A program made the position numbers and the translations under genes. A DNA stretch of 64,000 bases from Nonlabens sp. YIK11. GTDB taxonomy: Bacteria > Bacteroidota > Bacteroidia > Flavobacteriales > Flavobacteriaceae. Below the pieces are notes generated by a model. That model was given only the letters and a program-made list of their open reading frames with translations, was not told the origin of the DNA and ran no database searches. Of this stretch, positions 1,723-15,362 are shown piece by piece. The stretch is taken from assembly GCF_001413925.1 (NCBI RefSeq), contig NZ_LBMJ01000001.1, positions 2,210,001-2,274,000 of the forward strand, in the 5' to 3' direction. Position 1 is the first letter of the stretch. Each line of letters begins with the position of its first letter.

Positions 1723-2124
1723 TTACGGTATGTTTACCGCTGCCGTATCTGTGTCAAAAAATTGAGTGATATCACCATAAAGTTTTGCAACAATGGCTTT
1801 TTTGCCTTTGACTGCAATAGGGTAAATCAACATATCCGGTTCGTGTTGTAGAATTTTGATAGCACCGTCGTTATCCAGTTTCACGTGCTCACCATGTTTT
1901 TGTACAAAAGCACTATGATCTGTTGGGATTAGGTCCTTAACTTGTATACCTAATAGATCTGCGAGTTCTGTGAAAAAAGTGCCCGTCAATTTTTGTTTGG
2001 TAACGTCTATAGCGTTCAAATTATCGTCAGCAGATTTTGCATAGGCAAAGATCTCCTTATGATTCTTGATGTCGCTGTTGTAGATAAGCGTTATCTCGTG
2101 CTCGTCTGTTGCAATTGATACCAT
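1723..2124 (-). CDS. ArsC/Spx-fold protein without catalytic cysteine
   Basis: This 133-residue protein follows the arsenate reductase (ArsC/YffB) layout: an N-terminal strand-turn-helix (ITLIYNSDIKNHKEIFAYAK), a middle ELADLLGIQVKDLI helix, and the C-terminal PDMLIYPIAVKGKKAIVAKL segment that matches the family's NPxLIxRPIVxxG region. The position where ArsC carries its cysteine (after the first strand) holds aspartate/isoleucine, and the protein has no cysteine at all. Redox chemistry is therefore unlikely; a structural or binding role is my inference. Its start lies one base after the stop of the HPF gene, so the two are almost certainly co-translated, hinting at a link to ribosome dormancy or stress. 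Confidence 0.6.
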   Translation of the reverse strand: MVSIATDEHEITLIYNSDIKNHKEIFAYAKSADDNLNAIDVTKQKLTGTFFTELADLLGIQVKDLIPTDHSAFVQKHGEHVKLDNDGAIKILQHEPDMLIYPIAVKGKKAIVAKLYGDITQFFDTDTAAVNIP

Positions 2125-2125
2125 C

Positions 2126-2428
2126 CTAGTGATTTATCATATCTGCCTTGCGCTTCTCACATTGTGTTTTGAGTTGGGCAACGACTTTCTTTACAGACTC
2201 TTTAAAGGTATTGTGTGATTCTTCGGCAAAAAGTCTAGGTCCAGGTGCGCTTAGGCGTATTTCTGCGATCATACCGGTTTCACGGCTGGAAGTATTTTCT
2301 AATCTAAAAAATACATCTGCTCTGGTGACCCAGTTGTAGCGATCAAATATAGGTTGAAGTTTTTCAGCGGTATAAGCCTCTAATTCTTGGCTTCCTGTAA
2401 CGTGTTGGTAGTTGAAATTTATGGACAT
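2126..2428 (-). CDS. Ribosome hibernation-promoting factor, HPF/RaiA family
   Basis: A 100-residue short-form HPF/YfiA protein. Seen: FNYQHVTGSQELEAYTAEKL at the N-terminus, a middle strand with ADVFFRLENTS, EIRLSAPGPRLFAEE, and a basic C-terminal helix (KKVVAQLKTQCEKRK), which is the ribosome-facing part in this family. Such proteins block the decoding centre or promote 100S dimers in stationary phase. It is the first gene of a two-gene operon with the cysteine-less ArsC-fold protein. A near-consensus minus-strand TATCTTTA box lies at 2446-2453, about 20 bases before the start. Confidence 0.85.
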   Translation of the reverse strand: MSINFNYQHVTGSQELEAYTAEKLQPIFDRYNWVTRADVFFRLENTSSRETGMIAEIRLSAPGPRLFAEESHNTFKESVKKVVAQLKTQCEKRKADMINH

Positions 2429-2706
2429 AAATGTATGTTTTTGATTAAAGATACTTTGCGGATGAGGATCTCATCCCTAATTTAATCAATTCTTAGCATT
2501 GATTTACATATTATTTAAGGTTATTGAGAATTCAGCAAAAATGCAGTAAAACTTAAGCGGATTTCCCCTACAATTTCAAATGTCTTAGAATCATTTGATT
2601 AAATCACTTTAGCTATTATTTCCTGACTTCACGTCGGGAAAAAGAGTGATGATTGATGGTTAGAGCCGCCAACTCAAAATGAATGTTGTTCTATTATCTT
2701 CGTAAT

Positions 2707-4572
2707 ATGAAAAAGATGATATTTTTTGTGGTGATGGTGGGAAGTTTCGCTTTCGCGAAAGCGCAATTAGGATTTTGCTCTGGTGCATCCAGTGAAGCAA
2801 TTTTTACCGAAACCTTTGGCAGTGGAACCACGAGCGGTCCACCATTGACAGCGGTTCAAACCGGCTATACTTTTGTGAACTCCAATACGCAAGACGGTCA
2901 GTACACGATTTCCAGTAATTTGCAGCAGCTGGGTAGCTTTCATAATGTAGGTGATCATACCGGTGATGCTAACGGAAAGGCCTTTATTGTTAATGCTTCC
3001 TTTGATTCTGACCAATTTTACCAAACGACCATAAACGGACTGTGCGAGAATACCAACTATGAATTTAGCGCTTGGATCATCAATTTGCTTAACGGTTCCA
3101 ACAATGTATGTGCTGGTCGTGAGGTACCCGTGCAGGTGCGTTTTGAAATATGGGACGTGACCGATACCAACAGGCTTGCCCAAGGCGTCATGGATCCCAG
3201 GTTTGCAGAAAACCAACCCGTATGGATACAATACGGATTGACCTTCACCACAGCAGCAGGTCAGAATGGATGTATCTTAAAGATGATCAATGAAGGTGAT
3301 GGCGGCTGCGGTAATGATCTTGCGATTGACGATATCGTGTTCCGTACTTGTGGTGACGTGGTGCAGTTGGAAGACGCAAACAACGACACGGAAGCTTTTA
3401 GATGCATCAACGATCCCAGTGAAGCCATTACATTGACCATCAACACCAGCGAATCCATTTATGATAGCCCTGAATATCAATGGCAAACCAGTACTGATGG
3501 ACAAAATTTTACGGACATCAATGGTGAAAACGGAAACTCATTCACTTCACCAACATTGACAGCGACGACGTTTTATCGGGTAAAAATCGCCGAAGACGCC
3601 GTGAATCTCATTGGAACAGAATGCGCCAATTTTTCTGATATTTTTGAATATAGGGTAGTGGACGTTCCCGAACCAACACCGATAGAAGATGATGTCGTGA
3701 GCTGTGCTGGAGAAGGCGCAACTCTTGAAGTGAGCGTAGCCAATGGTTTTGTCGTGGACTGGTACGATTCAGCTACTGGCGGTAACTTTTTACAGTCTGC
3801 CAGTAATACGTTGCAGGTAACCCAAACTGGAACCTATTATGCCCAAACCAGAGATTTTGCTTCGGGATGTGTGAGTTCTAATAGAGTTGCTATCGACTTT
3901 ACGGTAAGCAATCCTCCAGTGGTGAGTGGTCAGGATTTAGTGGTTTGTCCAGATGAGAATGTCCTTTTGGATACTGGATTTACTGGCCTGGCGACCTATG
4001 AATGGAGTACGGGCGAACGCACGCCCACCATACAGGTAATTGGTGCTGGCACGTATACCGTAGAAGTCACCAATCCCAATGGATGCTCGTCTACCGCAAC
4101 TTTTACGATTAGCACCATCGATGCGCCTCAAATCCTGGAATTACAGGAAAACGGAAACATACTCACAGTCATCACCAATGACGGTGATTTCCAGTACAGA
4201 TTCAACAACGGTCCATACCAAAGAAGCAATGATTTAGATATTACTGGCGTGTTACAGGCTGTGGTAGAAGTAAGCGATTTGCAAAACTGTACCACGGTAA
4301 CTCAAACCTTCAATAGGTTGGGCATCAACCAATTTTTCACACCCAACAATGACGGATTCAACGACGTCTGGGAAGTAGGCAATCTTGCTGCATTTCCTGG
4401 CGCTCGTGTAGAGTTGTTTGATAGGTTTGGGAAGCTTTTAAAAGTCATGACGGCGACAGATCCCAGCTGGAACGGTACTTTCAACAACGAGCCATTGCCC
4501 AGTACAGATTATTGGTATCGCATCATTTACGACAATAGGGAAGTGACCGGCCATTTTTCTTTGAAGCGATAA
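2707..4572 (+). CDS. T9SS type B sorting domain (gliding-associated C-terminal) secreted protein
   Basis: A 621-residue exported protein. The start is set at 2707, giving a compact signal peptide (MKKMIFFVVMVGSFAFAKAQ); an in-frame ATG at 2683 lies upstream of a promoter-like TATCTTCG box. Residues about 25-190 form a jelly-roll-like region with NYEFSAWI and DLAIDDI. Then come two or three Ig-like segments with paired cysteines. The last 85 residues are the type B (CHU_C) sorting domain: FFTPNNDGFNDVW, VELFDRFGKLL, WNGTFNNEPLPSTDYWYRI. Such proteins cross the outer membrane by T9SS and need a PorP/SprF partner. A perfect CGCTTTCGCGAAAGCG palindrome encodes the AFAKA at the signal peptidase site. 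Ligand unknown. Confidence 0.88.
   Translation: MKKMIFFVVMVGSFAFAKAQLGFCSGASSEAIFTETFGSGTTSGPPLTAVQTGYTFVNSNTQDGQYTISSNLQQLGSFHNVGDHTGDANGKAFIVNASFDSDQFYQTTINGLCENTNYEFSAWIINLLNGSNNVCAGREVPVQVRFEIWDVTDTNRLAQGVMDPRFAENQPVWIQYGLTFTTAAGQNGCILKMINEGDGGCGNDLAIDDIVFRTCGDVVQLEDANNDTEAFRCINDPSEAITLTINTSESIYDSPEYQWQTSTDGQNFTDINGENGNSFTSPTLTATTFYRVKIAEDAVNLIGTECANFSDIFEYRVVDVPEPTPIEDDVVSCAGEGATLEVSVANGFVVDWYDSATGGNFLQSASNTLQVTQTGTYYAQTRDFASGCVSSNRVAIDFTVSNPPVVSGQDLVVCPDENVLLDTGFTGLATYEWSTGERTPTIQVIGAGTYTVEVTNPNGCSSTATFTISTIDAPQILELQENGNILTVITNDGDFQYRFNNGPYQRSNDLDITGVLQAVVEVSDLQNCTTVTQTFNRLGINQFFTPNNDGFNDVWEVGNLAAFPGARVELFDRFGKLLKVMTATDPSWNGTFNNEPLPSTDYWYRIIYDNREVTGHFSLKR
2748..2763. repeat. Palindrome CGCTTTCGCGAAAGCG inside the signal peptide of the 2707 gene
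   Basis: Perfect 16-bp copy, in frame GCT TTC GCG AAA GCG = AFAKA, placed at the predicted signal peptidase cleavage region. Confidence 0.9.
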
Positions 4573-13691: not shown

Positions 13692-13894
13692 TGGGATCCC
13701 ATTTTTCCAAAATAAAGATAATCTAATCTGCCGCTATAAAAATCTACTACGGTGACCACTACTCTACTATTCATACGATCACTGTTATTTCTTACCAGAG
13801 GCGTCATTGTACTAGATTACCAAGCAAGGTCTGCTCCTCATAATTCTTAACATATTATAAGGTTCTCAAAGCTTCATTTTAAAATGTTATGGTT

Positions 13895-13902
13895 TAGTTT
13901 TG
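13895..13902 (+). promoter_or_regulatory. TAGTTTTG promoter box of the NhaC-family gene
   Basis: Fits TAnnTTTG. Transcription from here would start near 13908, just before the S-box-like element, and leave a leader of about 145 nt. Confidence 0.6.
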
Positions 13903-13914
13903 CCGCCGCAAATA

Positions 13915-13979
13915 ATTATCAAGAATCTCATTAGGGAGATAGCAACCTGCAATAACGAGCAAGGTGCTAAATGGATAAG
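13915..13979 (+). promoter_or_regulatory. Compact S-box (SAM-I)-like riboswitch candidate
   Basis: Conserved S-box pieces appear in order: TTATCAAGA (P1 and J1/2), AGCAACC, GGTGCTAA and GATAA (P1 closing). P1: TTATC 13916-13920 with GATAA 13974-13978. P2: ATCTC 13925-13929 with GAGAT 13936-13940. P3: GC, ACC, TGC (13942-13950) with GCA, GGT, GC (13959-13967). The P2 loop UUAG (13931-13934) is complementary to CUAA (13967-13970), the place of the SAM-I pseudoknot. The long kink-turned P2 and the P4 hairpin of ordinary S-boxes are missing. The downstream gene is an NhaC-family transporter, the family of the S-box-regulated methionine transporter candidate MetT, which supports the reading. Confidence 0.55.
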
Positions 13980-14051
13980 CCAAGTTTTTGGAAAAAATGT
14001 TAACTCATACTTCTATTGCTGGTCGCTGTTTCCCTTATCTCAAATCAAGAT

Positions 14052-15362
14052 ATGGATCATAAAACCGTGATTACCCCTAAATTTTCAGCGCTTATACCGC
14101 TTTTTGTCTTCGTCTTTACTTTTCTAGGCGTTGGTATTATTCAAAATGACTTTTACGCATTACCAGCACCTATAGCTGTTATTGCGGGAATTATCGTGGC
14201 GTTCCTGATGTTCAGACAGACCATCGAATCCAAAATCCAAACTCTTTTAAAAGGTTGTGGTGACGATAAGATCTTGACCATGTGTTTGATTTATCTCTTG
14301 GCCGGTGCTTTTGCTGCCATCACTAACGCAACTGGTAGCGTGGATGCTATTGTCAATTTGGGCCTGGACTTTATTGCCGTGCAATATATCTACGTGGGCA
14401 TCTTTGTTATCGCTGCATTTTTATCGGTTTCTACAGGAACTTCTGTAGGTGCGATCGTCGCGCTGGCGCCTATTGTGGTAGGCTTTGCCGATAAAAGCAG
14501 CGCAGACCTCGCCATTTTGTGCGGCGCCTTGCTGGGCGGTAGTATGTTTGGTGATAATCTCTCGGTCATATCAGATACCACGATCGCTGCGACCCAATCT
14601 TTGGGTTGTAAGATGAGTGATAAATTCAAGGAGAATATTAAGATCGCTCTTCCAGCTGCATTGGTCACCATTGCCATTTTGATATTTCAAGGGTTGGATC
14701 TAGAGTCTGGCAATGCAGAGACGATCGTTTATGATTATTCGGTGATTAAAATTTTGCCGTACCTTCTTGTAATTGGGCTTTCTGTATTGGGCGTTAATGT
14801 GTTTATCACACTGCTTTTGGGATGCATCAGTGCTGCCCTATTGGGGATTGCCTATGGTGATTTCACCATATTGGAATCTACCAAAATCGCCTATGAAGGC
14901 TTTACCAGTATGACCGAAATCTTCTTACTTTCCTTACTTACCGGTGGTCTAGCTGCACTCGTGGCGAGAAATGGTGGAATTGATTTTATTCTGATCAAAA
15001 TAAAAAAGCTGATCTCCAGCAAGAAATCGGCGCAATTGGGAATTGCTTCACTGGTCAGCACCGTGAATCTAGCCATTGCAAACAATACAGTTTCCATCAT
15101 CATCACAGGTCCCATTGCCAAAACCATTAATGATGAGTACCATCTGGATAACAAGAAAACCGCATCCATTCTGGATATTTTTGCCTGTATTTTTCAGGGA
15201 TTGTTGCCCTATGGTGCACAGGTGTTGATGATCTTGAGTTTGTCTAACGAACTAATCAATTATCTGGATTTGGTTTCTAATACGTGGTACCTCTTGTTAC
15301 TGTTGATTACGACCATAGCATTCATTGTTTTCAATACACCTAAAACGGTAAGAGTTCCATAA
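14052..15362 (+). CDS. NhaC-family Na+/H+ antiporter, candidate methionine transporter
   Basis: A 436-residue polytopic membrane protein with about 11-12 hydrophobic segments. NhaC-family marks include STGTSVGAIVALAP (about residue 130), LLGGSMFGDNLSVISDTTIAA (about 165-185, the conserved GDNLSxISDT motif) and IANNTVSIIITGPIAK near residue 345. The start at 14052 (MDHKTVI) is preferred over the TTG at 14016. NhaC/MleN proteins exchange sodium for protons, often with an organic acid or amino acid. In Firmicutes a related gene, metT, is S-box controlled and predicted to import methionine. The S-box-like leader here points to the same role, but substrate is inferred. Confidence 0.85.
   Translation: MDHKTVITPKFSALIPLFVFVFTFLGVGIIQNDFYALPAPIAVIAGIIVAFLMFRQTIESKIQTLLKGCGDDKILTMCLIYLLAGAFAAITNATGSVDAIVNLGLDFIAVQYIYVGIFVIAAFLSVSTGTSVGAIVALAPIVVGFADKSSADLAILCGALLGGSMFGDNLSVISDTTIAATQSLGCKMSDKFKENIKIALPAALVTIAILIFQGLDLESGNAETIVYDYSVIKILPYLLVIGLSVLGVNVFITLLLGCISAALLGIAYGDFTILESTKIAYEGFTSMTEIFLLSLLTGGLAALVARNGGIDFILIKIKKLISSKKSAQLGIASLVSTVNLAIANNTVSIIITGPIAKTINDEYHLDNKKTASILDIFACIFQGLLPYGAQVLMILSLSNELINYLDLVSNTWYLLLLLITTIAFIVFNTPKTVRVP

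Follow-up and report, generated by a model that had tools for sequence, protein, structure and literature searches.

The leader and the transporter gene

The window, by which we mean the whole 64,000-nucleotide stretch of Nonlabens sp. YIK11 DNA analysed here, carries on its forward strand an NhaC-family transporter gene preceded by an RNA leader. The encoded protein of 436 amino acids contains a PF03553 domain (86.8 bits against a cut-off of 23), and its ATG start at 14052 fits the starts of its orthologs. Against TIGR00931, the NhaC antiporter equivalog, the protein scores 89.4 bits, below the cut-off of 370, and no relatives were found by sequence in the PDB at E <= 0.01. A thiamine-monophosphate-synthase-like gene (PF02581, 15454–16086, +) lies 91 nt beyond the transporter gene and is read in the same direction. 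The features of the leader and the gene are listed below in window coordinates; percentages are paired cells in the alignment of 69 leaders.

13895–13902, +, -7 box TAGTTTTG of the flavobacterial type TAnnTTTG
13911–14007, +, SAM-I/IV aptamer (RF01725, 62.8 bits, model positions 1–99 of 99)
13916–13924, +, core word TTATCAAGA, read from the sequence
13916–13920/13974–13978, +, P1, 5 bp (98.8%, nearly invariant)
13925–13929/13936–13940, +, P2 hairpin of 5 bp with a 6-nt loop and without an internal loop (99.7%)
13933–13947, +, candidate switch strand A (3' strand of P2, J2/3 and the start of P3), complementary to strand B
13941–13947, +, core word AGCAACC, read from the sequence
13941–13950/13959–13968, +, P3 with the conserved AGCAACC/GGUGC core (99.8%)
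13953–13956/13999–14002, +, PK-2, UAAC in the P3 loop with GUUA (99.6%, with a swap test on 24 divergent members)
13963–13970, +, core word GGTGCTAA, read from the sequence
13974–13978, +, core word GATAA, read from the sequence
13980–13983/13988–13991, +, P5 hairpin (98.5%, nearly invariant)
14021–14035, +, candidate switch strand B GGTCGCTGTTTCCCT, 16 nt before the start codon (duplex with strand A in the window, -21.1 kcal/mol)
14036–14052, +, small hairpin TATCT/AGATA reaching the A of the start codon, a prediction from the fold with the aptamer formed
14052–15362, +, putative metT-like NhaC-family transporter gene (PF03553)

Identity of the aptamer

The RF01725 match lies well above the family cut-off of 41.1 bits, with E = 5.2e-8 when the whole 64 kb was searched against 4227 Rfam families. 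It is the sole gathering-level match in the window and the only RF01725 match in the genome; one weaker match from a family of the same clan overlaps it. SAM-I (RF00162) had no match at 13911–14007 at E <= 1e-3 and matched two other places in the genome. SAM-IV (RF00634) matched nowhere in this genome at the same threshold, while the control search matched in one genome, and SAM_alpha (RF00521) had no match in this genome either, a negative without weight since its control matched nowhere. Because RF01725 is matched over its full length and neither RF00162 nor RF00634 is matched here, we assign the leader, on covariance-model grounds, as a complete SAM-I/IV riboswitch aptamer and regard the class as secure; the RNA would accordingly be expected to bind SAM.

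The first-pass annotation had described a compact S-box-like leader with the four core words in order, P1, a 5-bp P2 and P3, and had noted that a long P2 and P4 were absent. This description holds: the core words lie within 63 nt, the three helices are in place, and the sequence has neither a P4 hairpin nor a long P2 with a kink-turn or internal loop, for which there is no room between the mapped elements. The features that it missed are P5, PK-2, the -7 box (13895–13902) and the downstream switch strand (14021–14035). Its proposed comparison with the three covariance models gave RF01725 over the cut-off and, at E <= 1e-3, nothing at this site from the other two. SAM-I riboswitches have a P4 hairpin and a long P2 with a kink-turn, but since the RNA fits the SAM-I/IV model end to end, their absence needs no special explanation. 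The apparent loss of SAM-I parts is the normal plan of the SAM-I/IV family, and the Rfam consensus of RF01725 shows no P4 pairs.

Conservation of the aptamer pairings

The aptamer alignment comprises 69 distinct orthologous leaders. From the set of 70 leaders, L051 was left out as a duplicate of L038; L003, L008, L011 and L012 were not added, having the same leaders as L037, L073, L058 and L086, and L014, L016 and L017 stand outside the set of 70. Taken together, P1, P2, P3, P5 and PK-2 are paired in 99.4% of cells. The aptamer columns hardly vary, and the alignment therefore yields almost no covariation, with one both-side change in all. PK-2 was also examined by swapping tails among 24 RF01725 members, namely the one in the window, 15 found in relatives and 8 in viral contigs (the L131 loop was entered shortened and kept as computed). 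The mean match between a member's loop and its own tail was 10.5 versus 9.29 with swapped tails, and the highest of 300 swaps reached 10.375, below the value for the members' own tails; one of the 24 members scored 0, with no loop/tail match.

These data bear on the idea, put forward in the first-pass annotation, that the leader is a minimal or decayed SAM-I riboswitch with a pseudoknot between the P2 loop and J3/4. The S-box core words are indeed shared, and UUAG (13931–13934) and CUAA (13967–13970) are complementary in this sequence. In the alignment of orthologous leaders, however, where P1, P2 and P3 are kept, this pair is formed in 32.4% of cells versus a shuffle mean of 32.3%. RF00162 has no match here at E <= 1e-3, and RF01725 is matched over its full length and conserved across the 69 distinct leaders; taken together, these results make the SAM-I reading barely credible. 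By comparison of the leaders, the conserved pseudoknot is PK-2 on the P3 loop and not the P2-loop/J3/4 pair.

Linkage of the leader to the transporter gene

A protein-guided scan of named genomes gave 230 loci with transporter relatives, of which the best 80 were kept. The leader core was found upstream in 63 of these 80, and RF01725 passed its cut-off in all 20 core-positive loci sampled. In the remaining 17 loci, cmscan detected SAM-I/IV in three, identified the Pontibacter mangrovi leader as a canonical SAM-I, and found no hit of the SAM clan upstream of 12 remoter loci (L085 and L094–L104; 40–56% identity). The best 80 of 230 include 67 named loci with at least 72% identity, and 66 of these have the leader in front of the NhaC-family ortholog; in the 67th, L049, the contig leaves just 98 nt upstream. 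The named genera with transporter loci presumably all belong to Flavobacteriaceae. In a separate set of 148 relatives, RF01725 matched in 21 genomes (over the cut-off in 20) and the transporter gene was present in 15 at E <= 1e-20. The RNA accompanies all nine genes of at least 59% identity, and the six remoter gene-bearing relatives lack RF01725 and show no gathering-level match to any other SAM family. Within the genus, the gene occurs in 3 of 23 genomes, all three with the RNA, and a fourth genome has a weak, below-cut-off RF01725 match at another place (L021). Across these comparisons, the linkage of the leader to the transporter gene is secure, in agreement with the earlier reading of an S-box-clan SAM leader in front of an NhaC-family gene.

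The Pontibacter mangrovi ortholog (56% identity) is preceded by a canonical SAM-I and not by SAM-I/IV (L093 1657–1759; gene 1971–3305), and the sensor class thus differs before the same transporter gene. In Clostridium perfringens, MetT, a member of the NhaC superfamily under S-box control, is termed a "potential" or "probable" methionine transporter, and the same S-box/metT arrangement is named for other Firmicutes in the same source (PMC2940859). Since SAM riboswitches precede both the close orthologs (SAM-I/IV) and the one in Pontibacter (SAM-I), a metT-like methionine transporter role is likely on comparative grounds. The first-pass suggestion of a methionine importer remains the likely product, with methionine as the presumed substrate.

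The genome of YIK11 also has two canonical SAM-I riboswitches (C1:109959–110063 and 120260–120379, both on the minus strand), which precede a homocysteine S-methyltransferase-domain gene (PF02574) and a Cys/Met PLP-enzyme-domain gene (PF01053). With SAM-I before synthesis genes and SAM-I/IV before the transporter, one genome therefore splits the two classes by gene role.

Other SAM-I/IV RNAs in relatives and viral contigs

Divergent RF01725 matches (37–66 bits) occur in relatives at L002, L006, L009, L010, L013, L015 and L018–L024, with no recognised methionine gene downstream. Ten downstream proteins were scanned with Pfam, giving one VapE-like protein (L022), one phage integrase (L023), one sub-cut-off HTH (L024) and no hit in seven; one relative genome (G080) holds four RF01725 copies. 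SAM-I/IV leaders at L014 (1501–3097) and L016 (reverse strand) precede an open frame of 41 aa whose last residues read CHFYMRMCCCF, and in L014 a TonB receptor plug domain comes next; the cysteine-run pattern of this frame was found in 2 of the 148 genomes. A one-pattern scan of IMG/VR viral contigs returned 11 contigs, eight of which carry RF01725 over the cut-off, with nine matches (L122, L123/L129 with the same RNA, L130, L131 and L132; L127 and L128). In six viral contigs (five distinct), the RNA ends at most 13 nt from the start of a protein of ~86 aa with a GNRGWT-like motif, and in several viral contigs the PK-2 strand lies just before the start codon. This ~86-aa protein has 154 related proteins, no PHROG match and, in Pfam, one weak below-cut-off hit. 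As in the relatives, the genes behind the viral RNAs show no connection to methionine.

Promoter and expression platform

TAnnTTTG, the flavobacterial -7 consensus (PMC9723704), lies no more than 40 nt ahead of the leader in 64 of the 70 cases, compared with the 2.7 that mononucleotide shuffles would give; only 7 of the 70 have a TTG (-33) further upstream. Judged by the spacing from the -7 box, the RNA would start at about 13909, and the start codon lies 142–156 nt after the leader start in 70 of 70 leaders.

Between the aptamer and the start codon lies strand B, which may pair with strand A or, when free, with the start region. The A/B duplex of the window has a z-score of -4.4, and none of 200 shuffles gave so stable a duplex. 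The mean z of the 70 leaders is -3.2; 51 of them have p <= 0.05 and 19 do not. In a profile of aptamer segments against the platform, the only peak of complementarity is at strand A (mean z -3.2); segments away from strand A give z of -0.5 to +0.6, with shoulders where segments overlap it. In the alignment, the A/B helix is paired in 78.5% of cells versus 50–65% in slid controls, and its covariation score of 0.180 exceeds the slid maximum of 0.131 and was not reached in any of 500 shuffles. Cells with a change on both sides number 22, more than in any shuffle, but a slide of -1 gives an equal count; the five pairs with both-side change were reached by 88 of 500 shuffles and the 16 further pair types by 43 of 500. 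Because a slid control matches the both-side-change count, duplex profiles and contrasts between leaders were used for the A/B helix. Across 30 disjoint close pairs of leaders that differ in strand A, a leader's own partners bind better in 22 contrasts, worse in three and equally in five (p 1.6e-4); in random disjoint pairings the mean coupling was -3.4, similar to the -3.2 of close pairs. The order-level relatives L014 and L016, which have another downstream gene, retain an A/B match of 8 bp in which the letters differ. Taken comparatively, the A/B complementarity is conserved.

Proposed switch mechanism

We consider it likely that at high SAM levels the SAM-I/IV riboswitch represses the metT-like methionine importer by way of an A/B switch over the start; both the sign of control and the translational mode would follow from this model. 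Transcription would start next to the aptamer, which would form first as the RNA is made. With SAM bound, P1-P2-P3, P5 and PK-2 would form and leave strand B free to fold onto the start region, blocking translation (OFF). In the SAM-free state, strand B would pair with strand A, breaking P2, J2/3 and P3 and freeing the start region (ON). Strand A cannot take part in P2, J2/3 and P3 and in the A/B helix at once; from the sequence, the two states are therefore mutually exclusive. OFF with SAM and ON without it is the sign expected for an importer.

Folding predictions agree with this model in part. When strand B was blocked in silico, mean predicted start access rose from 0.41 to 0.56, compared with 0.47 when a control segment was blocked, and a rise of more than 0.1 was seen in 36 of 69 leaders versus 15 of 69 with the control block; in the window alone, access stayed at 0.45 (0.45 to 0.45). 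Start access was 0.53 in free folds of the full-length leader versus 0.44 for the platform alone, lower in 52 of 70 leaders (0.54 versus 0.44 in the window). The pairing probability between strand A and the platform in free folds has a mean of only 0.28, with 0.76 for the window. Forcing the aptamer in the window costs 10.3 kcal/mol relative to the A/B fold, in a model that includes neither the pseudoknot nor the ligand.

The same aptamer and gene could instead be controlled at the level of the transcript, through termination, Rho or mRNA decay, with the A/B helix as an anti-aptamer acting on the transcript. A U-rich stretch directly follows strand B in many leaders, and the predicted access to the start shifts only slightly in some leaders and not at all in the window, as this alternative would allow. 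However, a scan of the window at 13700–14200 found no terminator-like site, the spacing from the start to the platform is kept at 142–156 nt over the 70 leaders, and a terminator made of the A/B helix and a U-run would cut the transcript short when SAM is scarce, the opposite of what an importer calls for. We therefore regard control of the transcript as unlikely, though of all the alternatives to the translational switch it deserves the most weight.

A short leader peptide that mediates control is a far less probable explanation. It would begin at an AUG in the PK-2 strand (13997) and end near the metT start; an ATG occupies the position of 13997–13999 in 54 of 69 aligned leaders, and a similar peptide, for example of 14 codons, can be read in several. 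Yet 14 of the 69 have ACG and one has TTG instead, the frame is only three codons long in four leaders, its phase relative to metT is evenly spread (19, 17 and 16 of 52), and the peptide similarity coincides with the stretch constrained by strand B. With no sign of coding selection or of a conserved peptide, a leader peptide from the PK-2 ATG was rejected.

Translation starts in Bacteroidota depart from the Shine-Dalgarno pattern (PMC9723704). Extending the translational A/B switch beyond the window, we propose that in Flavobacteriaceae SAM-I/IV leaders the P2/J2-3 strand may hold off a pyrimidine strand that would otherwise cover an A-rich start, as a conserved translational switch that suits bacteria not relying on Shine-Dalgarno pairing and that is also present, with different letters, in L014 and L016; we hold the case for this generalization to be evenly balanced.

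What this analysis adds is the conserved expression platform, a modest mechanistic addition to a family, a ligand class and an S-box/metT link that were already known. In the accessible open-licence literature, no description of an A/B strand-swap platform was found; the SAM-I/IV structure paper lies outside that scope. The interest of the present analysis is nevertheless not confined to the platform. Through it, a gene that Pfam lists only as a member of a Na+/H+ antiporter family acquires a SAM sensor and a probable role in methionine uptake. Gene and sensor concern many marine Flavobacteriaceae, and the switch offers a concrete, testable model of riboswitch translation control in Bacteroidota.

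Comparison with known systems

The closest known system is SAM-I/IV itself (RF01725), with PDB 4L81 as its solved example (PMC5393176). The window leader shares its core, simple P2, P3, P5 and PK-2, and the family is described without a P2 internal loop (PMC2864571). The solved SAM-I/IV has a P4 hairpin (PMC6890682), whereas the window leader has none. SAM-IV (RF00634) is similar in having P5 and PK-2 and lacking P4, but it has P2a/P2b and PK-1 (PMC6890682), and the YIK11 genome contains no match to its model. The SAM-I class (RF00162) shares the SAM-binding core words with the window leader, and its arrangement is alike in the S-box before the NhaC-family metT of Firmicutes (PMC2940859). In contrast to SAM-I, the window leader lacks the long P2, P4 and a conserved P2-loop/J3/4 pair, and possesses P5 and PK-2. 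On the protein side, the transporter resembles MetT in combining an NhaC-type Pfam domain with a SAM riboswitch upstream, a likeness drawn by description, with transport predicted in both (PMC2940859).
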